A DNA stretch of 64,000 nt from Rhizophagus irregularis (lineage: Eukaryota; Glomeromycota; Glomeromycetes; Glomerales; Glomeraceae). The DNA lies in NCBI RefSeq assembly GCF_026210795.1, contig NC_089437.1:4588001-4652000 (forward strand). The letters are read 5' to 3'. Positions 2,864 to 34,769 of the stretch are shown here, one piece after another (position 1 is the stretch's first letter; each line of letters starts with the position of its first letter). A model generated the notes under the pieces. The model saw only the letters and a program-made list of their open reading frames with translations. It made no database searches and was not told the origin of the DNA. The position numbers and the translations under genes were made by a program.

Positions 2864-3770
2864 GTTAAAATTAACCAATAAAATCACATTGATCTTTATG
2901 CATAATGTAATAATATAAACCAATTAAGATCATTTTGATTATATGCATATGATATCTAAAAATAGATAAATTTTGTGTTTACTAATGCGTGATTTTTTTT
3001 GTTTATTTTCAAAGATACACTTTTCTTTCTTATTAAAAATACTATACTTTTCTTTACAGTATTTTTGTTTGTCACTTCTTTTTCTTTTATTCAAGTATAC
3101 TTTAATTATCTTTTACAATATTAACAATACTTTACCACTTTAGTTTATATATTCAACATAGTAAGACATATCTATTCACGAAATGTACCTACCATTCACA
3201 TACAAAAGAAGAGAATAAAAGAAAAAAAAATGTACGCAACTACCCACATACAAAAAAGAGAAAAGCTGCTTTTAAATAATAGTAGAGCTATTAAGCAAGG
3301 TATGAAAATAGGATATACACGTATTTTTCATATTTTCTTTACAATATGTTGTGGTTTGAGTCTTTTTTTGTGGTATAAGTGTGAATATATTTTTCAACGG
3401 CCATGTATCTATTGCTTGTTAAATATATTTGCAATTTCTTGTCTTTCTTTGTTAGACTGTGGTATTACAATATGAAGTGTAAATATATTTTTCAACGGCC
3501 ATGTATCTATTGCTTGTTAAATATATTTACAATTTCTTTTGTAATATTTGCTTTAGCCTGGAGGAAAATGTTATGAAATAGGGCTGGATATTTTATGACA
3601 TTTTCTGCCTTCCAATTACTTTGTCCGGGGGTAGCCTGACAATTTGTCGTTATCCGTCAGTTGTAGCAACCAGCATTTTTTTACAATATTATGATTTTAA
3701 GAAACAAAATTTTTTCAAAAATTTAAAGAAAGAACTAATTTAAAAATATTATTTTATTATTCTTTACAAA
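2864..3770 (+). repeat. 0.9-kb dispersed repeat, copy A (inverted partner at 14,407-15,344)
   Basis: Nearly the whole stretch reappears as reverse complement at 14,407-15,344, from TTAACCAATAAAATCA at one edge to TTATTCTTTACAAA at the other. Shared landmarks are GTCCGGGGGTAGCCTGACAA, a block CAACGGCCATGTATCTATTG present twice in each copy, and CAATATGTTGTGGTTTGAGT. It carries no significant ORF (the 81-codon frame at 3,230-3,475 is not conserved in copy B). It could be a non-autonomous transposon or a solo terminal repeat; no clear target duplication was found. Confidence 0.75.
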
Positions 3771-5530: not shown

Positions 5531-6102
5531 AGTTTTATCCTTTTCCTTTGCAAGTGTTTACGGCCAGACCACCCATTGCCTCTTATGAGACTAATCTCGG
5601 GCCTGCGTCCTATCATCTTCAATGGGCAACCATTATACCGAGTACTTAATTCCTCAGGTAACAGCACCACTATAGAAGACATCCCCCATCGGGCCATTTT
5701 AGGCCGATCTGAAGCTAGGTACACGCCGCCTACTCATCCTATACCCATTGCATGATACTGATACTCAATTTATTTAACGACCTTTAGAGAGCATCTACTT
5801 TCATGGAGGACTTTCGACAGGTAACATCAACCATCTAGTACCCTTCCATACTACCATTTTAGGTACTAAGTCTCACTCAAAGGCCACTACAGCCCGCGAT
5901 TACCTAGCACCGATAGTACAGTTGTTTACCCCAGAAAGGTATACTTTGTGACGACCACCTCAGTACAGGAAGTAGCAGGCATCTGTCCAGATCACCCCTT
6001 ATGGTGGGTATCAACTACCAGGATCACCAACCAGGACCCAAGGAGTAGGGAATCGAACCCCATAGCCATGCTACCTGTTCTGTGCACGAACACCTTGGTT
6101 GG
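5531..6102 (-). mobile_element. tRNA-like SINE, distal part (cut by the Polinton)
   Basis: On the minus strand this piece contains a box-B-like GGGTTCGATTCCC (about 6,048-6,060) and ends with GGAAAAGGATAAAACT (5,531-5,546). The matching proximal part with a box-A-like TGGTAGTTAG lies on the other side of the Polinton at 34,770-35,201. The piece is clearly richer in G and C than its surroundings. ORFs here (5,506-5,724 and 5,948-6,154) are chance frames in a SINE-like sequence. Confidence 0.55.
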
Positions 6103-6108
6103 TCTAAG

Positions 6109-6437
6109 AAGTAGTATGAAAACCCCAATTCTGGCTCACCTACTTATCTCATAATCTAAACCGTTTATTAATATTTTCACCTACTTATATGCTACATATT
6201 TTATAACCTAAATCACCTTTTTTATATTTTTACCTACTTATTTCATAATCTAAATCATTTATTAATATTTTCACCTACTTACCCCCAACCGAACAAGAAA
6301 TAGGATTTTAAAGCCAACGGAGCCAAAAAAGGTAAGGAATATTAACCCATCCAGGAAACCAGCCATGGAGTCAATAGAGCGGAATAGCAAGGCAAGCAAT
6401 TTCCCTTATACCGAGAAAAAATGTAATTGAATAAAAG
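6109..6437 (+). repeat. Polinton terminal inverted repeat, left
   Basis: 329 bases match 34,436-34,763 in inverse orientation with about one substitution. It begins AAGTAGTATGAAAACCCC and ends in the promoter-like motif. It holds internal short repeats built on CACCTACTTAT and TTTATTAATATTTTCA. Confidence 0.92.
6415..6437 (+). promoter_or_regulatory. Polinton promoter-like motif, copy 1
   Basis: A 23-base string starting GAAAAAA and ending TGTAATTGAATAAAAG lies 24 bases before the ATG at 6,462. Identical copies precede the polymerase gene and the right-hand F-box-like gene, and a near copy precedes the left F-box gene. That it is a promoter is inferred from this placement. Confidence 0.65.
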
Positions 6438-6461: not shown

Positions 6462-7145
6462 ATGTCACAATACAGACCATTACTAAGACGTATACTAGGC
6501 CAGTTTGAACTCAACATAGAAGAATGGGTAAAGGAAATAATGTGGTATTTAGATATAGCATATTTAAAAGCTTTAGATTCCGAATTTAGCAAAGAAAGTA
6601 TGTTAGTATCTGGATTAGAAGAGCTAGTAGAAATATTTGATGAGATGTTAGAAGGTGATGATATATGGATACATCCATCACTTTTATCACGAATAAGATA
6701 TTCTATTCTACCAGATGAGATGGCAATATATGAAAGATTTTCAGATATCATTAAGAACTTCTCAGAGGATAAAGAATTAGCATATGCATTATTAGACTTA
6801 GTAGAAATATTATCAAAAAAGAAACCTACAACATTCAACATTATAGATTACAATATACAAAGAATATTCACAAATCCTAATGATGAATATAGAAATGAAT
6901 TCAGCATCTATCATATAAAAGGAGATGAAGATATGGATGAAGACACAGATGAAGATATAGATGAAGACATAAATGAAGAAGAGCAGAATGAATTCAATGA
7001 ATACTACCAAAATCTTGCACCAACCACCGAGAGTCAGCTGGATAGGCTAAAAAATGAGTTGGCTATAACTCTATGTGACGAATGTCTTATGCCAACAAGA
7101 AGTCATGAATGCGATTGCTGGATTTTACAAATAGAGGGTTTCTAG
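6462..7145 (+). CDS. Unknown Polinton protein with acidic linker and C-terminal zinc-binding-like motif
   Basis: A 227-residue ORF. Residues 1-135 look helical with leucine and isoleucine spacing. Residues about 153-175 are almost entirely aspartate and glutamate in DED repeats. The C-terminus carries CDEC followed by HECDC (about 207-221), a possible zinc site. No family is recognised. It is the first gene inside the left terminal repeat and starts 24 bases after the shared promoter-like motif. The ORF looks whole. A structural or DNA-packaging role is possible but unsupported. Confidence 0.6.
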   Translation: MSQYRPLLRRILGQFELNIEEWVKEIMWYLDIAYLKALDSEFSKESMLVSGLEELVEIFDEMLEGDDIWIHPSLLSRIRYSILPDEMAIYERFSDIIKNFSEDKELAYALLDLVEILSKKKPTTFNIIDYNIQRIFTNPNDEYRNEFSIYHIKGDEDMDEDTDEDIDEDINEEEQNEFNEYYQNLAPTTESQLDRLKNELAITLCDECLMPTRSHECDCWILQIEGF

Positions 7146-7165: not shown

Positions 7166-7959
7166 TTACCTCTCGCAATCTGGAATAGGTGCATCACAAA
7201 TAAAATCTCCAAAATTATATGGATTAGAAAACAACTTCTGTAAGAACTTATAAACCATATCAGCATCCAATTCAGTCTTAGTGCCAAATATATTAACCTT
7301 ACCAGATTTAGGCCAGATATGTACCCGAATCTTTGAAGTAAAGATTATAGCAATTTTAGAATGAATATCACCTGCAACATTCTTAATATACTTTATCGGA
7401 AAGGGAAGAATCTCACGAATACCATCTATAGATTCTAAAGCATATGCTAAGGTAGAAAGATTAATAAACTTATCACCCCCAATATTAATCACAAATTTAT
7501 AATTGCGCAGGAGAGCCTTATTTTCACCCACAAGTTCTACAGAAGAAAATTCAGGTAGGGAACATTCAGAAAGGTAACGTAAGAAGATAGCAACAGGATC
7601 AAAAGACCTGAAAACTTGTATACTACCAGATTTAGGAAAATAACGAATAGTATGTACAGTATCAGCTAAGATGATAACAAACTCAATGCATGCATTAAAA
7701 GTGCTACCATCCCCCGTACGTCGCCGTCTATTTAATGGATTGTCAGGGGTGTACTTCGTCTGCATCGCCTCTCACCTTTTGGTTTAGACAAGTACTGTTC
7801 ATAACCCTCAAAAGCTTTATGAATAAAGTTGCTATTAATGGCAATAACATCCTTAGTAGGTTCAAGCTTATGACCAAGCACGGTGTAATCAAGCCCTTCA
7901 ACATTGATCTTAAATTCAGTAACAGTAAGAGATGGAGTAAGTTCACTAAAAGTAAGCAT
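7166..7959 (-). pseudogene. TATA-binding-protein-like transcription factor of nucleocytovirus type
   Basis: The product reads over two overlapping frames on the minus strand (about one break, or an unusual overlap). The main 199-residue frame contains two related units: IRYFPKSGSIQV and, about 110 residues later, VHIWPKSGKVNIFGTKTE. This is the pseudo-twofold pattern of a TBP fold, where each half has a strand pair ending in G-I-x-I-x-G followed by a helix. The upstream part has a PSLTVTEFKINVE strand and a basic RRCRR/NRRRRTGDGSTFNACIEF segment, which resembles the basic loop and the FNQ-type strand of TBP-like proteins I recall from large DNA viruses. The role, recognising AT-rich promoters of the element, is inference. 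Alternative: an unrelated internally duplicated protein. Confidence 0.5.
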
Positions 7960-8012
7960 GTCTGGTTTTTTCTATTCGATAGAAAAGAAATGTTCAAATT
8001 ATTTTATCCTAA

Positions 8013-8054: not shown

Positions 8055-8577
8055 ATGAGATACTACGACAAACAATAGCTTACCTTTCGAACTTTTAGAA
8101 AAGATATTCAAAACTTCATACGAAGGTACTTACTCCCGTTGGCATTATCTTTGCAATTATGCATTAGTGTGTCGAAAATGGGCTGTAGTAGCAAACTCTC
8201 TCCTATGGGGTGAAACAGACCTTTATAACCTCTATAATATTAAGGAGTTCCAAATGTACAAACATCTCACAAAACCAGGGACAGTATGTGGAAAATATAT
8301 CAGAAAGCTTAATATGGATGGAGTATTATTATGGCCTATCTGTATTGTAAAAATGCTACAAGCTTGCCCCAATATCCAGGAACTTAGCATAATAGATTAT
8401 CAATACTATGGTGGAAAAGGTGACGTTAGAGATTTGCTAAGTGAAATCCTGCATATATTACCAAACCTTCAAAAGCTAGATATCAGATATAGTCGATATT
8501 TTAAAAATAGAAATGCCATTGAAAAACTCATAGAAACCCGTAAAGACCTAGAAATCAGAGTAACATGGCAAATGTAA
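8055..8577 (+). pseudogene. F-box/leucine-rich-repeat-like protein in the Polinton
   Basis: The sequence encodes a canonical F-box: LPFELLEKIF, then ALVCRKWAVVANSLLW about 35 residues later. This is followed by leucine-rich segments (NIQELSIIDY, LPNLQKLDIRYS) as in F-box/LRR substrate adaptors of SCF ubiquitin ligases. F-box proteins are hugely expanded in Rhizophagus (known). The gene sits inside the Polinton, between the TBP-like gene and the Gag-protease region, behind a diverged copy of the shared promoter motif. The start at 8,055 is chosen from that spacing; the reading frame is not continuous from there (about one break). It is probably host-derived cargo (inference). Confidence 0.6.
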
Positions 8578-8824: not shown

Positions 8825-9890
8825 TTAATCTTCCTCGAGAGTGTGAATTTTTTTTAAGTCGATAGTATCCATCTGCAAGGAAGTCACGTTAGTTTTCCGT
8901 TTATGTAGAGAAATTGGAATGGTAATTTTTTTACGTGATGATAGAGGGATGGTCAGTTGCCGATTTTGGAAATCTAGAATGACATTAGCACGATCAATCC
9001 AAGGTACACCTAGCAATAAAAAGTCCTTATCACTCTTAACAACTATGAAGTCATCTTCAATTTTTTTAGAGTTCTCCCCATCATATACAAGAATACCAAG
9101 ACCATATACTGTCCCAATAGTATCAGATTTTGTTGCAACACCACTAAGGTCAGGAGCATTACTTCTATCAACGTCAAGATTTAGGCGCTTTACAATATTG
9201 TTAGATATCAGAGAACTATCAGAACCAGTATCGAAAATTGTCGTAGGAATAACTAAAGATTTTTCACTCTCAGGTGCGACTACTTTGGTCTTAATAGTGA
9301 CTACATCACTAGCAGACTTGCGGTTAACAATTCCAATACCTGCTATAGAAGACCATAAGTCATTATTACATATAACATCATCATTTTTACGGATTAAATT
9401 TGCAGCCATACTATTAGTTACAACTGAAATCATAGGATGAAGGATAGATGTGAAAAGGTCCTTAACATTATCCCAAACTTTTTCACGTGTTTTTATTGAG
9501 GGTTCTCCTTTAAGCTGACTGAGTACTGGTTCTTTATAATTAATGAATTCAGCATTCAGAGCATTGTAAGCAGATATAACAGTCTCTTTTGGTACAGCAT
9601 TAACGAAGGATTGAACCAGAAGCTTTAAGAGTTGTATAAAAACCTCAAAGATAATACGCTGCCTTTCAAGTTGTGATTTTTTCTTATCAGTAGGCTTTTT
9701 ATCTACACGTTTCCTTTCTGTAGGCTTTTTTTTTAATCCATAGCAGGCATGTCTAGAGTCTGAATCACTATCAGAGGAGTCAGAGGAGTCAGAGGCGTCA
9801 GAAGAGTTAGAGGAATCAGAGGAGTCACGTGCATAATTTGTTTTCCTCTTTCCCTTCTTAGATTTTGGACAGGAACTCTTAGTATGACCA
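8825..9890 (-). pseudogene. Retropepsin-like aspartyl protease region with zinc knuckle and serine/aspartate tract
   Basis: The clear domain is a 202-residue frame from 9,433 to 8,825 with the active-site signature IFDTGSDSSLI, a mid strand LGVPWIDRANVILDF and a C-terminal beta-rich part, as in Ty3-type retroelement proteases. Upstream in the same direction are a CGKSGHTKSSC zinc-knuckle-like motif and a long Ser/Asp/Glu run followed by lysine-rich sequence. No reverse transcriptase or RNase H follows; the frame simply ends and the minisatellite begins. It lies downstream of the Gag region on the same strand, so the two probably belonged to one Gag-Pro unit, with one or two frame changes in total, some of which could be programmed as in related families. 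Confidence 0.75.
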
Positions 9891-9893
9891 GAT

Positions 9894-12048
9894 TTACCAC
9901 AACTTCGAGCATTTCTTTGATTTCTTTGGTTTGCGTGTACCTGAACTTATACCAAATACCTGATTACCACGGTAAATATGGTCAGATGGTAAATTTTTAT
10001 TAAGTTCTGTATCAATAAATATTTCAAGATCACTAAGGGTTACTTTACTTATATCGATATCTCTTGGAAGACCTAATTTATATGCTAAAGCAAGTAATCT
10101 CTGAAATGATGTATCATTTTGAGGACTTGAAAATGGACTAGAAGATGGTACTGGTACTGCAGATGATCTAGCCGTAGTCATAGGAATTTTAGAATTTATA
10201 AGATTCTCAATATCCGCTAAAGTTGGACCTTGATATGTAACTATAGGAGTAGGTGGCATATCTGTCCTGTATTTCTCAACTTCTTCCAATTTATTCAGAA
10301 TAGATGCAACTGAATTTTCTAAACCAATACGTCGCGCATCCAACTTATTTTCACTGGAAAGACCATTTAAGAACTGTTGCCGTACTAATTCATTCTGATT
10401 TACCTCTGGAAGAGTTGGATATGCAAGTCTAACCATTCTTCGTAATTTAGAATAGAATCGGCTTACAGTATCACTACCCCTGAACAATAGCATTAAATGC
10501 AAGCTTAGACTTTTCAGATGTTATAGTAGGGAAGTAATGCTTAAAACGATATATTAATTGTCCAATACGTATTCCAGGAGCCACAATTGTACCTCCATTA
10601 TTAGCATTAGGATTATTAACAGCTATATCAGTAGGACGACCCTCGACTATTGACCAATCTTCATCCCATACAGTATGATCAGGTATAAAATTAGCACCAG
10701 TAATAGTATTAACTGCAGCTGCTTGTCCATGTAATACATTAGCCCCTCCACGAAATTGATTCGCCGCTACAGCCTGTATAGCGCCATTATTCAAAGCATT
10801 AAAAGCAGCAAGATTGGCCACACCAGTATTATCCAGAAGATTTACACATTCCCAATTTTTTCCTTTGATATGTGTTTCATACCAATCTCTAGCATCATCT
10901 TCAAGTAAAGTCTCAAAGACCCCATGAATCCTAACACGAGTTCTAGCATTAGCAGCAGGATCAAGTCCAGCAGACTCACACCATTGCCTGAATTCTTGAA
11001 GCCAAAGTTCTGGATCTTCACCAGATGCTCCTCTAAATTTTTTAGGTGCATATCCTGCCATTATCGGTTGTTGTATTACCGGAGGGTTATTTTGTAATGC
11101 TAGAATCTGTTGATTCAAATTATTGACCTGATTTTGCAAATTTTGACCATGATTACGACAGTTTAAAAATTGCCCTCTCCATGCTCGAGCTTGCTGAATG
11201 ATACCATTAGCCCGCCTTCTACTTCGTTCTGTTTCAGTATTATAGCGCTGTAATAATCTATGAGCATTTCTTCTACTCTCATCACGTTCTCTCTGGACAT
11301 TAGCTAGTTGAATTTGACTGTTAGCATATTGAGCCTGGATGTTAGCCAATTGGATCTGAGTATTTTGTGCAAGGACTTCCCAATGTTGGCGATGACGCAC
11401 TTCATTTGCATATGCATCCTCATAGGTACGTCTTGTTCTCAGTATAGTAGCACGTGTATTATTAAGTTCATGTCTAAGATATTCTTCACGGTTACGTGCA
11501 TCATCTAACAAACCTTCAAGTCTATCCTCCATATTATCTTGATCTTCTATAATATTTCGCAACTCATTAGCATATCGGATAATGGCATCAAGACTATCAT
11601 TTGCAGTGTTAAATAAATGATTTATATGAGGGTGTGCTGCTATAGTTGTACGATCAAGGTGAATACGAATACCAGCTACACTATTTGCTATAGTTGTCCG
11701 ATTATTTAAGATTTCTGTAATAGGGTCAGGAGGAATTGCTGCCATGTTTTTCCGTTGTCTATTAGCAAGTTCTTTTATTCGATCTTTAAGTTGAATATTT
11801 AGAGTATCAACTTCAATCAGCTGACGTTCTAATGCTTGAAGCCCTTCCTCCTTTAGTGATGCCGTTTCTAATGCTTTCTTAAGCTTTGCACGCAACTCAG
11901 CATTTTTTTGCCTAAGTTCTTCTATCTCAGATTCATGATTCTCAATTACACCATACAGGTATTTTATATATTGCTCTTGTGATTGCAATGTATGTGCAAG
12001 CTTTGTAATCTGTGTCTTTAATGATGTATCTTCCATTGCCAGTTCCAC
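9894..12048 (-). pseudogene. Gag-like structural protein with long coiled coil
   Basis: The main frame (12,048 to 10,474, 524 residues) starts with about 300 residues of coiled coil, rich in Glu, Gln, Asn and Arg, with repeated QLANIQ and QLANVQ units. A Ty3/gypsy-type capsid follows: KKFRGASGEDPELWLQEF, then LLEDDARDWYETHIKG. A second frame (10,502 to 9,894) continues with YSKLRRMVRLAYPTLP and QQFLNGLSSENKLDARRIGL, the usual C-terminal capsid part. It is spread over two frames. It is the only capsid-like gene in the Polinton. Its 5' end overlaps the start of the divergent integrase ORF by about 37 bases, so there is no room for separate promoters. No long terminal repeats flank it. Confidence 0.75.
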
Positions 12049-12983
12049 AGATTTTTATAGACCCTACATTTAATAAACAAATCGAACAAAATTATATCCT
12101 TCAACAAATCTATTACCATCCATGTGGATATTATCGTACTCCTGAAAAACTTTGGGCTAAAGTGCAAGCTGAGGGCCATGATTTTAACATATCTGATATT
12201 ACAGAGTGGTTGCATAAACAGGCTATATGGCAAATACACTCACCTATACCCAAGTATGTTCCACAGGTTTCTTTTAATAAGATTACTCGACCAAATATGT
12301 ATCATCAAGCAGATATCTTATATATGCCCTATGATACTGTAGATAGAAAGCTGTATAAATACTGTCTAAATATTGTAGATGTTGCTAGCCGATATAAAGC
12401 TTCAGTACCTCTAGAAGATCGCAGCTCTGCACGTGTTGCTAAGGCATTTAAAAAGATTTATAGTAAAGCAGACTGCCCGCTTATTTGGCCAAGAGTTTTA
12501 CAAGTAGATGGGGGATCAGAATTTAAGGATGAAGTTATCCGATTAATGGATGAAAAAGGTGTGCGTATTCGGGTGGGTACTACTCATAAGAGTCAGGCTA
12601 TTGTTGAACGGTATAATTGAACTTTAGCAGAGAGACTTTTCAAAATACAGGATGCAAAGGAACTCCTTACAGAAGGTGTGAATACTGCCTGGGTTAAGAA
12701 CCTTTCTGATATTGTGAATGAGCTAAATAATTCTAATACTCGTCTGCTAGGTATGTCTCCAGTTGAGGCAATCCAGAAAGATCAAGTGTATGCACTACCT
12801 TCAAAAATTCGGAAGGATAGACCTGTAGGTGCAGAAGAAATACGTTTACCAGCTGGTTCTCTTGTGAGATACTTACTTGATAACTCAGATTACCAAGGTA
12901 GGAGACGTGCAACTGATCCAATATGGTCTACTAAAGTTTATACAATTGAATCTTCCACAGTTGTTGATGGGCAGCCGGTTATA
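12012..12983 (+). pseudogene. Polinton integrase (retroviral type), main part
   Basis: An N-terminal helical region (IEQNYILQQIYYHPCGYYRTPEKLWAKV in outline) is followed by the RNase-H-fold core. The acidic residues are D in MYHQADILYMP, D in VLQVDGGSEFKD and E in QAIVERYN, matching a D,D-35-E integrase. A C-terminal part follows with RYLL and a DPIWS strand. This is the Polinton c-integrase family, related to retroviral and Ty3 integrases. It is cut by the 16.8-kb transposon at 12,984; the tail of the same domain lies at 29,748-29,848. Besides the insertion there is about one break. The start is uncertain because the upstream DNA is occupied by the opposing Gag gene. Confidence 0.85.
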
Positions 12984-13009
12984 CTTTGCTGAAACTTGGA
13001 GTTTACAAT

Positions 13010-14040
13010 CGATATTGATTAGATATTGCAATGATATCATTACGATATCATTACGATATTTTGATAAAAAATAGATTCGACGTCGTTAAGTTAGTCGTAA
13101 CTATATTTATTCGACATTGATTAGTTCGATATCTCTGCGATATCGCAGCGATCATTATGCGATGTAAATATTATCACGTAATCACATCGTAGTGATGTCG
13201 TATTAACATTGAATTAATATTACAAAAATATTTGACATTTATTTGATATCGTAACCATGTCGTATTAACATTGAATTAATATTACAAAAATATTTGACAT
13301 TTATTTGATATCGTAACCATGTCGTATTAACATTGAATTAATATTACAAAATATTTGACATTTTATTTGATATCGTAACCACATCGTAGTGATATCATAT
13401 TAACATCGAATTAATATTGCAAAAATATTTTACATCTATTTGATATCGTAACCACATCGTAGTGATGTCGTATTAACATTGAATTAATATTACAAAATAT
13501 TTGACATTTTATTTGATATCGTAATCACATCGTATTGATATCATATTAACATCGAATTAATATTCAAAAATATTTTATCTATTTGATATCGTAACCACAT
13601 CGTAGTGATGTCGTATTAATATTGAATTAATATTACAAAATATTTGACATTTTATTTGATATCGTAACCACATCGTAGTGATATCATATTAACATCGAAT
13701 TAATATTGCAAAATATTTGACATTTTATTTGATATCGTAACCACATCGTAGCCATATCGTAGTGATATCATATTAACATCGAATTAATATTGCAAAAATA
13801 TTAAAAATATTTTACATCTATTTGATATCGTAGCCACATCGTAGTGATGTCGTATTAACATTGAATTAATATTACAATTTTATTTGATATCGTAACTACA
13901 TCATAATAATATCATATTAATATCGAATTAATATTACAAAAAATGTTTTACATTTATTTAATATCGTAACTACATCGTAATGATATTATATTAACACCGA
14001 ATTAATATCACAAAAATATTTTTATTGTAATATATGTTTA
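13010..14040. repeat. Left subterminal array, GATATC-rich, 63-75-bp units
   Basis: About a dozen units of the pattern TTTGATATCGTAACCACATC, GTAGTGATRTC, RTATTAACATYGAATTAATA, TTRCAAAAATATTTGACATT. Unit length alternates between about 63 and 75 bases. CATCGTAGTGATG and GATATC are self-complementary, so each unit can fold. Higher divergence towards 14,000 suggests an expanding inner edge. Confidence 0.9.
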
Positions 14041-14104
14041 TTATTTATTATACATTAATAATAATAATTTTTTATTAGTGGATTATTATGGGTGAGTGGA
14101 GTAC

Positions 14105-14240
14105 GTTTCTTTTCTTCCTTTTTTTTATTCTTTTCTTCTCTTTTTTATTCTTTTCTTCTCTTTTTTATTCTTTTCTTCTCTTTTTTATTCTTTTCTTCTC
14201 TTTTTTATTCTTTTCTTCTCTTTTTTATTCTTTTCTTCTC
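14105..14240. repeat. 20-bp microsatellite, about 6.5 copies
   Basis: Near-perfect repeats of TTTTTTATTCTTTTCTTCTC. The two long overlapping ORFs here are a product of the repeat. Confidence 0.95.
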
Positions 14241-14406
14241 GTATGTGAGTGGATGGATACGTCATTTTCAATTTTAAAATATATATATATATATATATAA
14301 AAAATAAAAAAAACAATCATGATTAATAAAATGTACTCTTTGTAAAATATATTTAAAATTTAATACATAACCTTGGGATAATAGTTAGAGCAGGTAATTC
14401 CGGGAT

Positions 14407-15344
14407 TTTGTAAAGAATAATAAAAATGATAATATTTTTAAGTTAGTTCTTTCTTTAAATTTTTTTGAAAGTGTTTTGTTTCTTAAAATCATAATATTGT
14501 AAAAAAATGCTGGTTGCTACGACTGACGGACAACGACAAATTGTCAGGCTACCCCCGGACAAAGTAATTGGAAGGCGGAAAATGCCATAAATATCCAGCC
14601 CTATTTTACAACATTTTCTTCCAGGCTAAAGCAAATATTACAAAAGAAATTGCAAATATATTTAACAAGCAATAGATACATGGCCGTTGAAAAATATATT
14701 CACACTTCATATTGTAATACCACAGTCTAACAAAGAAATTGCAAATATATTTAACAAGCAATAGATACATGGCCGTTGAAAAATATATTCACATTTATAC
14801 CACAGTCTAACAAAAAAATACTCAAACCACAACATATTGTAAAAAAAATATGAAAAATACGCGTATATCCTATTTTCATACCTTGCTTAACAGCTCCACT
14901 ATTTATTTAAAAAACGGCTTTTTTCTCTTTTGTATGTGGGTAGGTGGGTACATTTTTCCTTTCTTTTATTCTTTTCTTTCGTATGTGAGTGGCGGGTACA
15001 TTTTCTTTTCTTTATTCTTGCTTTTATTCTTGCTTTTCGTATGTGGGTGTCTTACTACGTTGAATATATAAACTAAAGTGTCCCAAAGTATTGTTAATAT
15101 TGTAAAAAGATAATTAAAGTATACTTTAAAAAGAGACGAACTAAAATACCGTAAAGTATTAATATAAAAGACAAGAGAAAAGCGTATTTTTGAAAATAAA
15201 CAAAAAAAATCTCATTAATAAACGCGAATTTTAGCTATTTTTAGATATCACATGCATGATATCACATGCATGTAATTAAAGTGATTTTAATTGGTTAATT
15301 TTAATTTATTATTACATCATGCATATGATTTTATTGGTTAAAAT
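14407..15344 (-). repeat. 0.9-kb dispersed repeat, copy B
   Basis: Inverse copy of 2,864-3,770, with the same internal duplication of the CAACGGCCATGTATCTATTG block. It has an extra GAAAAG/AATAAA-rich stretch around 14,930-15,040. It lies inside the 16.8-kb transposon, between the left array and the Plavaka-like gene. Confidence 0.75.
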
Positions 15345-15399
15345 TTTATACGATACAAATTAAAATAATTATTTTATTATATTTATATAATTAATATAA

Positions 15400-18300
15400 T
15401 TATATGGCTGTAAAATAAAAATTATTTTTTATCCAAATTCTATTTGTAGTATCATGATTTGGTAGTTGGCACCTTTCTGAATTACAATTATGAATAAAAT
15501 GTACTTTTTGAACATTATCTATTACAGTAATTGGAAAAATACGTCTCCATTTATCTCCTGTTGCTTGGAGACGGTAAAGTGGACATTTTAATACTGAATG
15601 TTCAACCATAAGATCTTCAAACCAATCTACAACAATAAATGCATAATATTTGTTATTGTTACCCTTATGTTGAAAGATACCTTTGATTATTGCATAAGAT
15701 TCTTCATGATCTTCTTCATAAATTGCGATAAAATCATCGAGATGTAGGTGAACTTTTGAAAGGATACCATTTTCTTCTTCAATCATATATGATGCAAATT
15801 TGTACCAACTAATTGAAGAGTTTATAGTGCTGCCTCAAACTTTATATCCACATAAGATAAAAACAATTCAGTTTTAAAATTATGTAAAGTTAAAAGAAGT
15901 TTATCACGTTATGCTTTGGCATTCTTTTTTTTAATGAAATATTGGAAATAAAGTTTACTGGAGATATAACTAAATTAAAAGATTAGTAAATATAAATATC
16001 AAACATGTACTATTATATGCAATAAAATACTTACTTTTTGTATCATCATCATCGTCTTGAACTTGTTCAGTTGCTTCAGTTGAATATTTATCTTCTGTAA
16101 CATACCAATTTAAAAATAATTGTCCAAAATTTGAATTTGTAAATCCAGTACAAGATCTATTAAATCTTGGATCAATACCACCATCTGCTAAATGTCGAAT
16201 TGCAAATAAAGTATTGTAACGCTTTAATAAATCTAAATCTATGTTTTTGCAATTAGTTTTTGGTACCATCCCCTTAAAAATACGATGGACCATTTCTTTT
16301 ATACCAACTTGGGTATTAATAAGTGTTCCAAAGGTTTTAGCAGTGCATCAAAAGATGCATATTAACGTGTATGTTTGGTAAATTAACAAAATTTACAAAA
16401 ACCTATAAAAAGTAAAATATTGTTAATTATTTGAAATTATTCCACATTTCAATATCAAATTTGTAACTATACCTTTGGAAGGATTGAAAACTCTTCTTCA
16501 AGACATTGTTGCAATTCCTCATGCTTATCTCGACGTAAATTTCTTGTTAAAAACCGCTTTCATAGTTTTTGCAACATGTATCCAACAAGATATAATAATT
16601 TTTGGAATGAACTAACTCGAAATGCATCAATTCCTTTGTTGAATCATGGCTGTTTCATTACGTTTGATACTTGATTCTTTTAAAAACTGGTTTAACAAAA
16701 ATGGCATAATCATAGCTAATCTAAGTAAATCCGACATCATAAAACTATTGTAGTGAGTAATCGGATTTGGTAAGCGAGACCATCTTTTTTGGAATTTCAA
16801 AATTTTTCCAAATTTCGATAAAATTATCTTCCTTCTCTCGTGAAAATAATTCACAAGTTAATTTTAGTACCGCCCAATCTTTCCTGCAGTCGCATGATAA
16901 ACATCCTGCGGCGTCTGTAAATGTTCTTTCCTTTTTAATTTATCTAAAATACTAGGTAATGATCGTAAACCATATTCCGTACAAAGTTGATCTCTTCTTG
17001 ACATTATAGTCTACGAGAAATTTTTAAGATTTCTTCGTCTGTAATATGATGATAACGTAATGTTGTTACGATATCCCTGATTGTGAGCACTCAATGATTC
17101 TTTAGTAGTTTTACAAGTACGACAACCCTTATTTGCATTATGTCTAAATTTATTTTTTAAACAATTTTAATAGTTGTCATAAAATTATATTATTATATTA
17201 TTAACTAAGTTGAAAAAATACCTTAAGTACTCCTGTCATATCGTTACCTTGAGGTAAATCTGCCGTAACAACGCCTAAACCAGCAATTATCCATGCATCT
17301 TGTCCTTGGACAGTCATCACCTTTCCTTTCTCTAATTCCTTCATTTCTGAAATGAATGGTATCATAAATTCGTCAAATTTTCCTCCAAATGGGATAAACC
17401 CAATAACAAAATGGTTCTTTATTAGCTTTCTTTGATGTGCTGGCATATTTCCAAACTGTACATAAACACCACCTAGAGAATGGTATACATTTCTAAATAT
17501 ACCAAAATCATCATAATAAAGATCTAAAAACAGCTTATAGATTGGCATAGATGATGATGGTGGATTTCTAATAGAAATGTAATCAGATGGATGTAGGTAT
17601 GAAAGCTTTACATTACGAACGTGCTAACGGTCATTACATTTATAAATTATTTCACTAATCCGCAATGAACCATCAGGAATATTTTCGATGTTAAAACATC
17701 ATCAATATAGTTACTTTTTCTAAAATTTGAGAAGTCATTATAATTAAAAATGGTTCGTCTTGTAACCATACTTCACCGGTAATAGAACGACGTTGTCTTG
17801 GTAACCCTTTTAAATTTCCGGGTAAATCACTATATTCCAAAATTTTTTGAATTCGTAACTGATAATATCCATCATGATTTTTTAAAATTGATCTTAATCT
17901 TCCAAGTTTTTTTTGACCATTATCATCATGATAGTAAACAAAATCACCAGATCGGTACAATACTATTTATTAAAAATAAATAACTTTAATAAATATTATC
18001 AATGATAATAAATTATAATTGTATCAAAGTGTATTAATTTATAACCTTCTGATATTAATATTTCGTGTTGCCAAAAAGTGGGGATTCCCCCCATAAATTT
18101 CCATGCCAAAATTCTGATTTTTCTTCAGAATTAATGCCGGGTCCAAAATACATATGCTTCATTAGCATCGGATTATTAAGAACACGCCATATAATTTCAC
18201 TAATTGAGAGTTGATACGAAAGTTTTGATCCTCATGGAGTTGATGGAGTTTTTTTGGTGAAATTTTAATAGACTTTGTTATTATTGGTAAGAGAGTAAGA

Positions 18301-19050
18301 CGTTTTCTCCATGATTGAATCTTCGGATATTTTTTACCACATGGGTAGGTTCAAATTGAGAATTGCGAATGATATCGACAAGATCTTCATATGCTTTCGT
18401 AGAAACATTATGTTTCTGAAGCCAGCAAAATAATGCCGTAGTGTATAATTATCAAAGCACGGTGCAAACCGACCATTGCATAACGGTATCTTGTCTTCAT
18501 CTAACGCTTCAACGTTTATGATTCCTCTTCGTTATTACGTTCCTCTTCGTTATTATTACGTTCCTTCTTCATCGTTATTACGTTCCTCTTCATCGTTAAT
18601 TACGTTCCTCTTCATCGTTATTACGTTCCTCTTCCACTTGATTATTATTATCATCATTATTACCTTCATCCTCCTCCTCTTCGTCATTGTTTTCATTATT
18701 ATCTTCCTCCTCTTCCTCCTCTTCATAATTGTATTCGTTATCACTTTCTTCTTCCTCTTCAGTATCAGATGAATTGACATTATCTTGCGAAAATATCATC
18801 TCATCATTGTAGTTTGAGGATTAATTGATCCATATGCATTATCGTCATCATTAATGTCTTGAAAACTTAAATCATCTTTATGATCATACTGAAAGTCCAT
18901 ATCATCGTTATCATTATCAGGTGAACGTACAGGCGAACGAATTGCCACTCTCTCGTCAGAATCTGTTGTCTCATTAGGTTTGCTGTAAGAAAACCGATTT
19001 CGAATTCGAATTGGCTCTATTGGCTTGTTGTGACTATATCGTCTTCTCAT
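15400..19050 (-). pseudogene. Decayed Plavaka/CACTA-like transposase gene with BAH-like domains
   Basis: Reading down the minus strand there are: an N-terminal Ser/Arg/Asp-rich part (19,050-18,796); a very acidic Glu/Asn/Asp tract (18,799-18,596); a segment around 18,560-18,300 with CNGRFAPC; a BAH-like piece GDFVYYHDDNGQKKLGRLRS (17,960-17,691); a catalytic-region block with LFLDLYYDDFG, VYVQFGNMP and DLPQGND (17,548-17,201); and a zinc-knuckle-like GCRTC just after an intron-like gap near 17,120. After that come LPNPITHYNSFMMSDLLRL (16,854-16,627), DLLKRYNTLFAIRHLADGGI (16,293-15,970) and a second BAH-like domain (15,786-15,400). The order matches a transposon gene family I recall as frequent in Rhizophagus. 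Some gaps are plausible introns, but several frame changes lie within conserved blocks, so the copy is probably dead. Confidence 0.65.
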
Positions 19051-19289
19051 CTTTATAACAATTTAAAATAATTCAAATTTAATTAGAACATAATTACCAG
19101 TGGTACCACTACCACAGTATCTGTTATAAATTCAATTAGAACTAAATTTATTAAATACTATTAGTGCGTCAAAAAAAATGCAATTAAGTAATCAATTCGG
19201 TTAAATTACTGCCGATTTGGCTACACAAAATTTAGGGTCAATTATACCGGTTAATGACAATTGGTATGACAAATAATATTATCGAAAAT

Positions 19290-19530
19290 AGTCATTTATT
19301 GAATCAGAAAATAAAATAAAATATATAATAATATAAAACATAATAATAAAATAAAATAAAACATATAATAATATAAACATAATAATAATTAAATAAAATA
19401 AAACATATAATAAAATAAAACATATAATAATAAAATAAAATAAAACATAATATTAAAATAAAATAAAACATAATAATAAAATAAAATAAAATATATTAAA
19501 ATAATAAAATAAAAAATAAAAAATCAATGA
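19290..19530. repeat. Low-complexity AATAAAATAAAACATA tract
   Basis: About 240 bases made of A and T with rare C, dominated by AATAAAATAAAACATAATAAT permutations. It directly abuts the GC-rich palindromic patch. Confidence 0.9.
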
Positions 19531-19700
19531 TGCGCGCCGCCCGCGCCCGGTGGTAGGGAGATCGAGACCGAGAGCGCCTGCGCTCGGTGGTGAGGAGATC
19601 GAGAACGAGAGCGCCTGCGCTCTCGGTGGTAGTAGGGGGATCGGGAGCGAGCGCCTGCGCTCTCTATACTCGTACGTCCTACGATCCATCCTATTTCTCC
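19531..19700. repeat. GC-rich palindromic repeat patch
   Basis: Three near copies of GAGAGCGCCTGCGCTCTCGG with flanks GGAGATCGAGA and GGTGGTAG. GAGAGCGCCTGCGCTCTC is a near-perfect hairpin. The patch is the most GC-rich stretch in the window and contrasts sharply with the tract next to it. Confidence 0.85.
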
Positions 19701-19789
19701 GGGCGGCCCGACTAATGCTTAAAACAAAGCAAGTATTAATATAAATGCAATGAATTAATGAAAAAATCAGTTAAATAATAAATACTTAC

Positions 19790-20139
19790 GCTCCACTCTC
19801 CAAAACTCGTCAGAGAGTTCCTGGTGGAATCTCTCGTCATGCAAAGTCGGGTACGAGTGGGATATCCTTCAGGATTTCTGTTTATTAATCTCTCTAAATT
19901 CTCGTACCCCGACTTTAGCGCATTCCATTTCTCTCTACATTGTTTTCTAGTTGGCCTGAATATGTGGTTGTTTCGTATATCACGAGCAATTCCACGCCAT
20001 AATTGGTTTTGGTTAGGTGTAACCTCGTTGTGGTGAATAAGGGCTGATAGGCCCGACGACGCTGAATTAAGGTCAAAGCAGCGTCATCGGGCCATTGAAT
20101 GTATACTGGAAGATTTGCGTTTAAGTTTAATGCTGCCAT
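19790..20139 (-). pseudogene. Broken SANT/Myb-like DNA-binding domain gene
   Basis: From ATG at 20,139 the minus strand reads MAALNLNANLPVYIQWPDDA and then ALTLIQRRR. The rest of the domain, WRGIARDIRNNHIFRPTRKQ with CREKWNALKSGYENL, continues in another frame, and a final piece RFHQELSDEFWRVER in a third. The W..D...L..LI and QC..KWN pattern is that of the trihelix/SANT-type domains linked to Harbinger-like transposons and expanded in Rhizophagus. At least two frameshifts make the copy non-functional. Confidence 0.7.
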
Positions 20140-20208
20140 TATTAAATATTATTAGTTTGATGGGGAAAATGTCAAGAAAAGGCTCTATATTTATAATAAA
20201 TTTATTAT

Positions 20209-20612
20209 GATTTCTTTGAGTTTATTTTTACGATCTTGTCTAAATTTTTTAGTTCTAATGCAATCATCCTTAATTAATTTATTTAACATTGAATACACAC
20301 ATAATTTTTTTTTGATTTCTTTGAGTTTATTTTTACGATCTTGTCTAAATTTTTTAGTTCTAATGCAATCATCCTTAATTAATTTATTTAACAATGAATA
20401 CACACATAATTTTTTTTTGATTTCTTTGAGTTTATTTTTACGATCTTGTCTAGTTCTAATGCAATCATCTTTAATTAATTTATTTAACATTGAATACACA
20501 CATATTTTTTTTTGATTTCTTTGAGTTTATTTTTACGATCTTGCCTAAATTTTTTAGTTCTAATGCAATCATCTTTAATTAATTTATTTAACATTGAATA
20601 CACTCAATTTTT
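20209..20612. repeat. 105-bp minisatellite, four copies
   Basis: Units start with GATTTCTTTGAGTTTATTTT at 20,209, 20,314, 20,419 and 20,514; the third is 95 bases because TAAATTTTT-type bases are missing. A 105-base unit is 35 codons, so both strands stay open; the minus frame reads a basic unit with LNKLIKDDCIRTKKFRQDRK. Confidence 0.95.
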
Positions 20613-20857
20613 TGATTTATCAATTTATTTTAAAAATATAATTATAGTAATACTGCATTAATTAATATATATAAATAAAAATAAATAAACAAATTCTATT
20701 AATAAAAAATGAGTTAAAATGTTATCTTTATACTTTATAATTATAAAATATAATATTTTAAATCACGCATGTCCTTCTTGATTATATTTCATATTACACT
20801 GCGATGATATATTACAATTATACTGAATTTTAAGCTAACCTTAATTTACACCGTAAC

Positions 20858-21010
20858 GAACTTAATTCGATCTTAATTTACTCCGTTTTAGGAATATTAT
20901 CGAACAATTAAACAAATGATTAGTTGCACATGACTTGTATTATTTGAATAGTTGATACTTTATATACCGATATTTGATTACACCAATATGTATTAAAACT
21001 CTTTCCTATC
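20858..21010 (+). repeat. Dispersed repeat, copy 2
   Basis: Partner of 2,424-2,600. It shares AACTTAATTCGAT, TTAATTTAC and ATCGAACAATTA, then diverges. Confidence 0.55.
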
Positions 21011-21283
21011 AGTAATTTCACAATTTCAATCAATATATCGGTATTTTTCAAATATCGTTGTAAGTCTACTACTGTAGATCCCATCTATTTTTTATGTAAT
21101 CAATCCAGAGGCTTACACTAAATAGATATGGCTTAGTTAGATAGGATCATCACATGGTTCATTGGCTCAGTTATTTTTCCGTCGAAGAGTACCAGGATCT
21201 TATAAATTTTTTTCTTGCATGTCATCGTATCACACATAAAAATGGAAATTCAAAACGTAATATTCCATTAATTTCTTCTCACT

Positions 21284-21400
21284 CCTTTTCTTCTACCGAT
21301 CATTTTTCTTCTCACTCCTTTTCTTCTACCGATCATTTTTCTTCTCACTCCTTTTCTTCTACCGATCATTTTTCTTCTCACCTTTCCATTATTTTTTTTC
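21284..21400. repeat. 33-bp minisatellite, about 3.5 copies
   Basis: Perfect units of CTTCTCACTCCTTTTCTTCT plus ACCGATCATTTTT. In the plus frame opened at 21,154 each unit gives an 11-residue repeat SSHSFSSTDHF. The surrounding frame has no other sign of a gene. Confidence 0.95.
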
Positions 21401-21868
21401 TTCTCATTCCACGTATAGCCTGAAAAATATAATAAATTTGAAACCGTAAAATTGATTTGAGGTAATCTTCCATGTAAAAAAAAATTTCACTGAATGAAAT
21501 TCGATATTGTAATAATTTATTTATATTAATTAAATTTAATTTTCGATCTTCTAGAAATCATAATTTTTAGTTTTCCCATCTCCCGATATTTTTAACTGAT
21601 CCTGCATTCTACACGATACACAATGATATTAAGATCACGTATATTTTCCAATTAAATACTACAATCATAATTACAATAGCTAAAATCTCAAAATTATATC
21701 ACTGATAACCTCGCCCTTTTTTTTGTTCATTCAATATTTATCATCTACTTTTTTGAGCAAGAAAGTTGCTCTACATTTTTTATTCATTCATATTTTCTCG
21801 ATAAATATCACCTACTTTTAAACAAAAAGGTTGTTCCACTTTTTTTTCGCTCATATTTTTTTTATATT

Positions 21869-22180
21869 ATGACGACTAAACGTAAATTACCTAATAAATC
21901 GTCTGATGATAATCAAGAAATGGAAGTTGAAGGAGGTATGTAGATATAACTCTTTTGTAAATTTATAGTAAGTTTTGCTTATATAGTTATATGTAAGAAG
22001 AATAATTAATAAATACCAAAAATATGTATAATAGGATCGAAAAGAAAACAAATTACGAAAAAAGAAGAGATATTGACATTGAGAAAGCCAATCAGTTGAT
22101 GAAAAAAAGTAAAAATAGTAATAAAGAAGCTGCCGAATCTGCTGATAAAGAAGTTATAGTAGTAAATGAAAAAAGAAGTA

Positions 22181-22215
<35 letters not shown>

Positions 22216-23030
22216 AATGATGATGATGATGAGAGTAAGACGGAAGATCATAAAAAACCCGAAGTATTTCAATCAAAGTCAAATTTAGAAATAGTTGCTT
22301 GGCTCGTCGACCATCCGGAAATTTTAAGATTGGCCTAGAAATGAACAATACGGATGTTGCTATCTCATCATCCAGTAAAATTACGGACGTAAGTATTAAA
22401 TTAACATGATTTTATTATGTCTAAATCTTTTAAATAATGTATTTTTAATATTTTAGGATAAAATTCGTCTATGGGACGAAAGTGTCAAGTGTCTTTTTTT
22501 ACGTGCAAGAAGTCCGCGTGGTGAAGTTTTTGATGAGTTGATAACAAAAATTTTCAAAATAAAAATACATTCGAACGAAGTAAAAGCTACTCGAAAAAAC
22601 CCGAAAATTTTTTATCGATTTCAGAAATAAGTTTAACCAAATTATTTTAACTTCTGTAGAAGAATTTAAAGAAATAAGAAAAAACAGGTATTTATTTAAT
22701 TGTTTCGTAGCTAACCAAATAGTGCTGTTTGTATTAATTATTAATTTAATTATAGAGCATCTACTGGAAGTTTATCTCAAAAGGAACTTATAGATTACGT
22801 TGATGAAGAATTTGTCCAAAAGATTTTAAGCCGACAGCTTGTAGCTGTTAATATTTCAGAATTAACAAGAAATGGAGGATTCAATACCTTGGTTGATTTC
22901 GTAAGAGAAACCTTTAAGGTTTCGTGGAACGGAAAAAATTTGTCCGCCGTTAAAGAATTAGATAATATGACCAAAAAATTAACGATCCCTTCTAGGAGCG
23001 GAAATAAGATCGTTGATTCTTTATCGGTAA
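21869..23030 (+). pseudogene. Multi-exon gene of an unrecognised transposon-associated family
   Basis: Exon-like blocks with good splice signals: 21,869-21,935 (MTTKRKLPNKSSDDNQEMEV); about 22,038-22,389 (a lysine-rich part, an aspartate run coded by a GAT microsatellite, then LEIVAWLVDHPEILRL); about 22,458-22,686 (LWDESVKCLFLRARSPRGEV, a SANT-like start); and about 22,756-23,024 (LIDYVDEEFVQKILSRQLVA). The donor at 21,936 and the acceptor at 22,037 do not keep the frame, and another shift lies near 22,330, so this copy looks broken. No 3' end is seen before the transposase gene's promoter. It sits in the same orientation as that transposase and may be its partner gene. Confidence 0.45.
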
Positions 23031-23370
23031 GTTATTTTATTTATACTGTACTGATACTTCATATCCTTTAATCATAGTTATTAATAATAATATTAAATTA
23101 TACATAGTTATAAATCTTAGCAAACGCTCTAATTTTTTTATAAAATTATGCATTTTATAACGATATTACATTGAATAAATTTAGTAAATTTTACAAGCAA
23201 ATGATAATATGAAAACATCATTAACAATCCCCAAACATTATAAACATTAATGTAATGTCGGTGATAATAATATAAAATAAAATGGATGTATAAAACTCAT
23301 ATCAGCTGATCAAAAAAGTCCCCTAATTTTTTGGGGTGAAAAATTACAAAATTATGATCTGGTGTTTTGC

Positions 23371-23379
23371 TATAAATAG
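23371..23379 (+). promoter_or_regulatory. TATA box of the DDE transposase gene
   Basis: TATAAATAG, 167 bases before the ATG at 23,546 and 231 before the ATG at 23,610. Confidence 0.5.
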
Positions 23380-23609
23380 TATACATTTTTTAATTGGCAG
23401 TTTTCTTGTATTACATTTTTCGAAGTCTTTGCTCAACCATTAACGAAAATAAAGATTATCAAAAAAATTAATATTCGGTACAACTGCCGATCATTACATA
23501 TTAATACACGCGTAAATTTTTTTTTAAAAATTTTTTTTTAAAAAAATGGAAGCTAACGAAATTTCTTTACCACTTCAAACAGATCAACAAAGTTAAAAGA
23601 AAAAACCTG

Positions 23610-25884: not shown

Positions 25885-26136
25885 TATTTGTTTAAAATAT
25901 TAGTTTAAAATTTTGTTTTACAGATTCTTAATTTACGAAATATTTCATTTACTTCATTATCAATTAATAATTAAACCAATAAAATAGTTTTCGTTACATA
26001 GACTAATTTTTATACAAATGAATTTCTATGATTTCAGTTTTATTTTTAATTCTGTATATGCTTCTAAATACACGTTTTTTTTAAAACCCTCTATCCTTCT
26101 TTCTGCGCATTAATGTCTTTATTTTTCGTCAATTCT

Positions 26137-26957
26137 TTAATAAAAATTTTCTATAACTCTTGTACGTGAAATTGTAAAATTTATAAAAATAAACCCTGAT
26201 GAATATACAATACTACGCACATCTGATTTTGTTTTTCTCTTCCAGCAAATCACGATTTGTATGGGTTTAGGTTTATATATTCGTCGTTTTTTAGCTGTAT
26301 GCATTGATGTCTTATTTTGATCTTGTAGAGATTCTTGAAGAGGATCGTGTTCTTGAAGAGGATCGTGTTCGAAGAGGATCAGGGTTCTTGGAGAGGATCG
26401 GGATCGTTCGGATTTGGTGATTGTTGGTATGATAAAACAAATGTTTGTTGTTGCTGTGAAAAATATTTGATACCCCAATTATCATCTCCCAATACATTTG
26501 ATAGCGTATGGTAAGAACTAACACCTTTAAAAATACACTTATAATTTCCCGTTTTTGGATAATAATCGTGTATATATCCTTTAAAAACGCCAAAAAATTG
26601 ACTTTCTGTGCAACTAACCATAATACGAACACCCCCAACATGTCTTGAATTTTTTTTTAGTTTTTCTTTTATATGATAAACCAAAGCCTGTCGCGTTTCT
26701 TCAATAGCTTTCTCAGGCAAATCATAAACTGTCGGTCTCATAGTATTAGCTTCTTTAACTTTTAATATATGATTTTCTAAACCAGAGTGTCTTTTATAGA
26801 TTTTTCCACATGTTCCACACTCAAACTTCTTGCATAACGTATTATTTGACAATAAGGACATAAGTACAACCCGGTAATTGTCTATAAATAAAGTTTTTTT
26901 AGACGAAATGCCGTGTTTTATATAATATTGGACGCGTTTTTTTAAAATAAAGAGCAA
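26137..26957 (-). pseudogene. C2H2 zinc-finger gene of a Rhizophagus repeat family
   Basis: The main frame runs from 26,957 to 26,379 (192 residues). Residues about 46-66 form a C2H2 finger, CGTCGKIYKRHSGLENHILK in outline, followed by a conserved body (VYDLPEKAIEETRQALVYHI, QFFGVFKGYIHDYYP, GNYKCIFKGV, DDNWGIKYF, QQTFVLSYQQSPNPNDP). I recall this layout as a frequent family in glomeromycete genomes. At the C-terminus a short repeat (GAAGAGGATCGTGTTCTT, about 26,330-26,400) breaks the frame and the reading passes into two other frames, so the end is probably damaged. Confidence 0.6.
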
Positions 26958-29747: not shown

Positions 29748-29848
29748 TATATAGGTTATCTGATGGACCTAAAAAAATATTTACTCGAGAAGAATTATTA
29801 GTTGTGCCATCTGATACTATGCTGCCTCCTACTCATATATTATATTAA
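29748..29848 (+). pseudogene. Polinton integrase, C-terminal tail
   Basis: Immediately after the transposon's right end the plus strand encodes RLSDGPKKIFTREELLVVPS and a short end TMLPPTHILY, typical of the C-terminal domain of this integrase family. Its TAA overlaps the stop of the opposing polymerase gene. Confidence 0.8.
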
Positions 29849-34435: not shown

Positions 34436-34763
34436 CTTTTATTCAATTACATTTTTTCTCGGTATAAGGGAAATTGCTTGCCTTGCTATTCCGCTCTATT
34501 GACTCCATGGCTGGTTTCCTGGATGGGTTAATATTCCTTACCTTTTTTGGCTCTGTTGGCTTTAAAATCCTATTTCTTGTTCGGTTGGGGGTAAGTAGGT
34601 GAAAATATTAATAAATGATTTAGATTATGAAATAAGTAGGTAAAAATATAAAAAAGGTGATTTAGGTTATAAAATATGTAGCATATAAGTAGGTGAAAAT
34701 ATTAATAAACGGTTTAGATTATGAGATAAGTAGGTGAGCCAGAATTGGGGTTTTCATACTACT
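34436..34763 (-). repeat. Polinton terminal inverted repeat, right
   Basis: Inverse of 6,109-6,437 with about one difference. Its inner edge (34,436-34,458) is the promoter-like motif that faces the F-box-like gene. Confidence 0.92.
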
Positions 34764-34769
34764 TCTAAG

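Follow-up and report, generated by a model that had tools for sequence, protein, structure and literature searches.

A window of 64,000 nucleotides of the Rhizophagus irregularis genome (NC_089437.1, positions 4,588,001 to 4,652,000 of the forward strand) was analyzed, and coordinates given without a locus name refer to it. The window carries a Polinton (Maverick) DNA element in which a Gag and a retropepsin-like protease (Pro) lie on the strand opposite the integrase (Int). The element spans 6110-34763, or 11,890 bp without a nested insertion. Inverted arms of 342 nt, 99% complementary, were found at 6096-6437 and 34436-34777. The outer edge of the terminal inverted repeats was fixed by comparison with another copy, placing the left repeat at 6110-6437 (plus strand) and the right repeat at 34436-34763 (minus strand). 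The target-site duplication TCTAAGA precedes the left repeat (6103-6109), and the identical 7 bases follow the right one (34764-34770). From left to right, the element contains an acidic open reading frame (ORF, plus), an ORF on the minus strand, an F-box-like gene (plus), Pro and Gag (minus), the integrase (plus), a family B DNA polymerase (PolB, minus) and a small ORF (minus).

Gag occupies the minus strand from 12036 to 9894. Its N-terminal part (10474-12036) comprises a coiled coil and the N-terminal part of the capsid, and its C-terminal part (9894-10520), broken in frame relative to the former, runs from the capsid C-terminal part to the zinc knuckle. Its reading frame is shifted both near 10.5 kb and at the knuckle. 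Pro (8825-9946, minus strand) consists of a knuckle remnant (9869-9901), a serine/acidic tail and a retropepsin-like DTG protease with the active site DTGSDSS at 9212-9232; a run of nine A residues lies at 9723-9739, flanks included. In another copy (L074), Gag and Pro form a single frame of 1,075 residues. The integrase, with an rve domain (PF00665, E value 1e-9), is encoded head-to-head with Gag at 12021-12983 (plus strand); it contains an in-frame stop at 12618-12620, and its C-terminal codons resume at 29748-29848. The earlier note had described a 37-base overlap of the two frames and considered an insertion that had clipped the integrase start. The start codons overlap by 16 nt (12021-12036), and because the overlap is likewise 16 nt in L074 and 19 nt in a divergent family (family B below), the integrase start was not clipped.

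The identity of the module was examined by profile searches. With single sequences, Pfam matches were Asp_protease_2 in the window Pro (E 4e-4), Retrotrans_gag in an intact copy of the window's family (family A, E 3e-3) and in a family C relative (E 4.6e-4), and zf-CCHC (E 0.03 and 7e-3). The Gag, knuckle and protease assignments of the earlier note were recovered at sub-threshold scores; no Gag family was matched in the Pfam scan by the Gag pieces of the window itself. The scores were consistent across relatives, and the order Gag, CCHC knuckle, D(T/S)G protease recurred among them. Among 11 protease homologues, the window included, 8 matched Asp_protease_2 and 7 matched gag-asp_proteas, with a best E of 1.5e-5. 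The Gags of families A and C aligned at 39% identity; those of B and D aligned at 32%, with a different capsid core, and gave no Retrotrans_gag match in the Pfam scan. In the family D copy read, the knuckle is absent and DSC replaces DTG/DSG. Against PDB sequences, the hits of a Gag profile included retroviral nucleocapsid knuckles (E 0.01-0.75) as well as cytochrome bc1 chains, which are unrelated (0.65-0.95). A Pro profile (A5) recovered Ddi1, a retropepsin-fold protease, at E 0.02, ranked under an MI-domain protein (E 0.004) that matched a low-complexity linker only. Nothing relevant was returned from PDB when the sequences of Gag-Pro, PolB and ATPase served as queries.

The position of Gag-Pro was surveyed across the genome (146.7 Mb, 32 contigs). 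Counts of profile matches are lower bounds, the best candidates having been scored. At least 113 Pro matches gave 80 typed places, the remaining matches being further fragments of those copies; at least 150 integrase matches gave 135 places, and at least 129 and 84 PolB matches gave 80 places. An integrase was found within 20 kb of 71 of the 80 Pro places (beyond 5 kb in 4), and all 71 Pro-Int pairs were head-to-head, with the integrase encoded on the other strand and situated toward the start of Gag. A match to the viral/protein-primed type of PolB (pPolB) was found within 25 kb of 58 of the 80 Pro places; two of these matches, 16-19 kb off in places of families C and D, are probably unrelated to them. 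The families sharing the head-to-head pair reach down to approximately 30% identity in the protease and 35% in the integrase. Families A and B are approximately 50% identical in the integrase and 30% in the protease, indicating that the Gag-Pro and integrase arrangement is old. The polymerase lies beyond the integrase in family A and on the protease side in family B. The recurrence that the earlier note had named as support for capture, an identical placement of Gag-Pro in several independent copies, was seen in dozens of copies from several divergent families, with the start overlap kept in A and B. No empty-site Polinton with an uninterrupted integrase start was found among the places compared; this comparison did not extend to the integrase loci that lack a Pro match.

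Two whole copies were delimited. The family A copy (L069, L070) is 12,153 bp long, with terminal inverted repeats of 380 nt (98.7%) and a 6-bp duplication, AATGTA. The family B copy is 11,828 bp long, with repeats of 912 nt (99.9%) and a 5-bp duplication, TGACG; it was assembled from L071, L072 and 1,139 bases of L073, which are nearly all terminal repeat and lie outside the ORF list. Selection was estimated among family A copies from the ratio of nonsynonymous to synonymous differences (pN/pS), with the limits that 2 to 7 copies per estimate carry stops and that pairs are not independent. The ratio was 0.21 for the protease, 0.25 for the integrase and 0.30 for the C-terminal part of Gag (26 of 30 copies each), 0.46 for the N-terminal part of Gag (25 of 30) and 0.18 for PolB (7 of 8). 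These values indicate that the protease is under purifying selection, comparable to that on the integrase. The true constraint is probably stronger, because decay after insertion should raise the values. A further estimate for the Gag tail (pN/pS 0.91, pS 0.33; 25 of 30 copies) was taken as an alignment artefact over copies in shifted frame and was not used.

Several Polinton hallmarks were present. PF03175, the viral/protein-primed PolB, scored over cut-off in A and B copies in the genome search and reached E 6e-14 in a separate scan of a B copy; the A and B polymerases are 42% identical. The integrase is of the retroviral type, and long terminal inverted repeats border the window, A and B copies. 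The target duplication of Polintons is 6 bp, as in the A copy; the window has 7 bp and the B copy 5, with one base ambiguous or missing. On the other hand, Pfam and PHROGs scans and a P-loop pattern revealed no packaging ATPase or cysteine protease in the two elements followed over their whole length (A and B), and no double-jelly-roll capsid was matched there, although a highly diverged gene may have escaped sequence comparison. This agrees with the earlier note, which had recognized none of the three. The scans (18 and 9 proteins, respectively) also gave no reverse transcriptase. The P-loop pattern occurred in no ORF of at least 60 residues in the A and B loci, and the same pattern found the ATPase of family C as a control; a YxDD-like pattern occurred in no ORF of at least 150 residues. 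Among ORFs that are neither assigned nor antisense to an assigned gene, the longest encodes 267 residues in the A copy and 147 in the B copy. In the accessible parts of one paper, ATPase and protease are given for 83% and 74% of Polintons, so they are not universal (PMC4028283). Retroelement hallmarks were sought as well: neither reverse transcriptase nor RNase H was matched among the A and B proteins scanned, no long terminal repeat (LTR) or reverse transcriptase was seen around 8.6-12.1 kb, in accordance with the earlier note, and no direct repeats border 8.8-12.0 kb. The window element is thus a Polinton variant and not a standard member, because PolB, integrase and termini are present and ATPase, cysteine protease and capsid are not recognized.

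Families C and D combine the same core with other genes. In a family C copy (C23, two samples), an A32-type packaging ATPase lies downstream of the integrase (PF04665, E 7e-11), and the polymerase end resembles PDB entry 8ywg ('DNA polymerase', E 3e-11), which we take to be the DNA polymerase of African swine fever virus (ASFV). An ATPase match was found within 15 kb of all 15 C/D Pro places, none of 21 B places and 2 of 34 A places; the family A test took 34 of 40 places, and at least 152 ATPase matches gave 146 places in the genome. The two ATPases near family A lie 10.5 and 13.7 kb away and are outside the element, given its size. At one C/D place (C9:1288929) the counted ATPase is on the other strand, and an ATPase in line with the integrase lies approximately 19 kb off. 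The ASFV-like PolB was found on the Pro side at all 15 C/D places. Conversely, among 30 places with an ASFV-like polymerase end (from at least 32 matches), the integrase lies downstream on the same strand in 27, an ATPase is present in 25, and both together with Pro in 15. Because the C/D group was largely defined by the lack of a nearby pPolB (13 of 15), the ATPase and the ASFV-like PolB are its sole independent findings. They indicate that the Gag-Pro and integrase core occurs with two different replicases.

A coiled-coil gene without assigned function appears similar by eye in family B (L071:4398-4832) and family C (L078:956-1588), which suggests that B and C are related elements. Another abundant Polinton-like family was also seen, with ATPase frames of approximately 411 residues, integrases of approximately 376 residues (39% identity) and PF03175 in frames of approximately 630 residues; examples are C15:4120453 (ATPase) with C15:4124708 (integrase), and C24:2487631 (ATPase) with C24:2491702 (PF03175). 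No Pro was among the matches listed at this family, which may be the jelly-roll-type Polinton of the fungus.

The junction of Gag and Pro was compared among copies. In family A, the run of A residues at the Gag end has a length of 9 in 16 of 30 copies, 10 in 10 and 8 in 2, and was not found in 2. A run of nine fuses the Gag and Pro frames, and one of 8 or 10 shifts Pro relative to Gag. The single copies read of C and D have AAAAAAAAAGTGA as the end of Gag, and their Pro is in the -1 frame. Among environmental clusters, Pro starts in a shifted frame in P0010 (96 members), Gag ends approximately 12 residues past an A-rich site in P0058 (104 members), and Gag and Pro are fused in P0006 and P0009. 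Slippage or frameshifting at a homopolymer would be a likely means of keeping Gag-Pro output below that of Gag; the differences in homopolymer length are possibly assembly errors.

The copy in the window is dead: 16.8 kb lie within its integrase, and Gag and PolB are broken. The nested insertion (12984-29747, 16,764 bp) is a later event foreign to the Polinton, and it splits the C-terminal codons of the integrase, as judged from the copy at C9:5.21 Mb (L069/L070), where L070 is contiguous across the site. The window is 96.6-99% identical to L069/L070 up to 12983; from 29748 the identity is 97.8% and then 87-88% in the last part. The degraded viral/protein-primed PolB (PF03175) occupies 29911-33743 on the minus strand; in other copies its frames have 1,207-1,302 residues and those of the integrase 357. 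The acidic ORF (6462-7145, plus strand, 227 residues) is kept in L069 and has no assigned function and no Pfam match over cut-off. The next ORF (7166-7971, minus strand), also without assigned function, is broken in the window and has 267 residues in L069. The F-box-like gene lies at 8059-8577 (plus strand; PF12937, E 1.4e-6 in L069), and the small ORF at 33950-34396 (minus strand), the L070 homologue of which has no Pfam match. The nested insertion has weak inverted ends (13002-13064 and 29606-29668, 73%), satellite-like repeats (13154-14015) and a 605-residue ORF (24067-25884) to which no identity was assigned. One dispersed repeat occurs in inverted copies at 2936-3752, outside the Polinton, and at 14429-15264, inside the nested insertion (72-100% identity over pieces). 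An ORF at 700-1623 matches the Tet_JBP oxygenase family slightly under cut-off (PF12851, E 4e-8).

The best protein match of the window protease is from R. irregularis itself (100% identity across 92% of the query). Relatives of the module occur beyond R. irregularis. Pro relatives were found in Gigaspora margarita (29-31% identity), Gag relatives in R. diaphanus, Paraglomus brasilianum and Entrophospora, and relatives of both among environmental sequences. For clusters P0013 (Pro) and P0133 (Int, 76%), the longest contig is in each case 15,410 bases long and of one common source, which suggests that both genes lie together on one contig. Short peptide patterns (2 to 6 per scan) for Int, PolB, Gag and ATPase found no relatives in viral_contigs. 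A Gag in a Polinton was not reported in the titles, abstract openings and passages of open-access papers covered; other literature was not covered. Within such passages, 'gag' is a chance string in PMC12220804, PMC10328495 and PMC12945077, Gag is named in a figure legend only in PMC10175614, and nothing on Gag in Polintons appears in PMC2836005, PMC3671162 and PMC6431247. Maverick elements of R. irregularis are described in passages of PMC8647823 and PMC11075540 that do not mention Gag in that context. Passages of other papers place R. irregularis polymerase sequences within Asfarviridae (PMC5294986) and Rhizophagus polymerases near ASFV (PMC12455990), and the main text available of a third describes a 1.5-Mb viral region with PolB and contains neither 'integrase' nor 'gag' (PMC10640383).

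Together, these comparisons indicate that Gag-Pro is a stable, selected part of these DNA elements, inside the terminal repeats and head-to-head with the integrase. We consider it probable that the window holds a dead copy of a Polinton lineage of this arbuscular mycorrhizal fungus that would use a retroelement-type Gag-Pro as its structural module, a DNA-filled Gag particle being the most likely use of the pair as judged from the genes. Gag would form the shell, and its content would be DNA synthesized by the PolB of the element itself. Slippage or frameshifting at the A-rich junction would, in many copies, yield a smaller amount of Gag-Pro. The retropepsin would cleave Gag for particle maturation or for release of the integration complex, and insertion of the linear DNA by the integrase would leave a target duplication of 5-7 bp. 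The capture of Gag-Pro proposed in the earlier note is supported, whereas its terms 'swapped' and 'virion genes' were inferred, and the related C/D families keep a packaging ATPase. Since related families share the Gag-Pro and integrase pair, differ in PolB and carry the packaging ATPase, the core appears constant and the replicase exchangeable. There is about an even chance that these elements form an unrecognized group of glomeromycete DNA elements or viruses, with a constant Gag-Pro and integrase core and exchangeable replicases (viral/protein-primed PolB, or ASFV-like PolB with an A32-type ATPase), which would carry double-stranded DNA in a retrovirus-type capsid.

Several points weigh against a structural Gag-Pro module. 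Families A and B have no recognizable packaging ATPase, which leaves the filling of a Gag shell with DNA without an explanation. The single-sequence scores of the Gag and Pro domains are all under the curated Pfam cut-offs, and AlphaFold single-sequence models were unusable (mean predicted local distance difference test score 32.5 and 53.6). The D-family protease read, with DSC, may be inactive, and Pro of the B copy read is preceded by an in-frame stop and not by a frameshift. Nine of the 80 Pro places had no integrase match within 20 kb, the copies are related by transposition so that the counts are not independent, and PF03175 was missing from the hmmscan output for the polymerase piece of family A and for both full-length polymerases (A and B), although it was matched by the B piece and in the genome search. 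The C/D elements were sampled only, and may hold a jelly-roll gene.

A chance nested retrotransposon fragment, confined to the window copy, would be in keeping with the at least 150 Retrotrans_gag matches in the genome, many in long open frames, and with the later 16.8-kb insertion that this copy did receive. It is refuted by the other copies and has a negligible probability: position and orientation are identical in all 71 Pro-Int pairs across divergent families, the protease is constrained, no LTRs or reverse transcriptase were seen, and the start overlap is kept in A and B. A single recent insertion as ancestor of all copies is disfavored by the divergence of the families. Gag-Pro might instead be a stable gene pair with a non-capsid role, in nucleic-acid binding, integrase steering or interference with retroelements or related viruses. 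The lack of an ATPase for filling a shell in A and B, the altered active site of some proteases and the Polintons given as without any capsid genes in the accessible parts of PMC4028283 are consistent with such a role. We regard it as unlikely, since the full retroviral order of Gag, knuckle and protease is kept, with an A-rich junction in A, C and D, which a lone binding protein would not need.

The direction of the exchange may also have been the reverse, a retroelement-derived Gag-Pro and integrase having gained DNA polymerases (PolB twice) rather than a Polinton having lost its jelly-roll genes. A constant core beside two kinds of PolB and a variable ATPase would fit this order of events. 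Polinton-like terminal repeats, the viral-type PolB, and Gag and integrase encoded divergently, unlike in a retroelement polyprotein, make it fairly unlikely, and it would alter the history of the elements but not their present function. A hidden RNA stage, in which Gag packages RNA and reverse transcriptase is borrowed from other elements, is suggested by the retroelement type of Gag and protease and by the abundance of ordinary Gag-bearing elements in the genome. It is very improbable given the selected DNA polymerase and the inverted-repeat ends; a DNA replicon requires such ends, and LTR elements lack them.

Retroelement Gag and the capsids of icosahedral DNA viruses are regarded as separate lineages. 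A DNA-replicating element with Gag and protease as its only recognizable structural genes would join both and would show that the capsid module of Polintons is exchangeable. It would also open DNA packaging by a Gag shell to testing, and demonstration of the particle would make the wider group a new kind. The results also suggest that the asfarvirus-like polymerase genes of this fungus, reported elsewhere as giant-virus genes, belong partly to such elements.

These elements share with Polintons the viral/protein-primed PolB, the retroviral-type integrase, inverted repeats of hundreds of bases, the short target duplication and accessory genes. They differ in that the A and B elements read, of approximately 12 kb, carry Gag-Pro instead of a recognizable double-jelly-roll capsid, minor capsid, ATPase and cysteine protease. 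With Ty3/Gypsy LTR retrotransposons they have in common Gag, the CCHC knuckle, the aspartic protease and the rve integrase, but no LTR or reverse transcriptase was seen, the integrase is on the opposite strand, and the elements have their own DNA polymerase and inverted repeats. Ginger DNA transposons likewise combine a Gypsy-type integrase with a DNA transposon, and are described in the accessible passages without polymerase and without Gag (PMC2836005). The PolB end of C and D resembles ASFV DNA polymerase, as do the asfarvirus-like Rhizophagus genes; unlike in the passages available on those genes (PMC5294986, PMC10640383, PMC12455990), the polymerase here adjoins an integrase, an ATPase and often Gag-Pro. 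Cafeteria virophages with nested Ngaro elements also have a retroelement Gag inside the bounds of a Polinton-like element. As far as the accessible text describes them (PMC8547959), those Ngaro elements are whole inserted retrotransposons with reverse transcriptase, whereas here Gag-Pro is a fixed part of the element.

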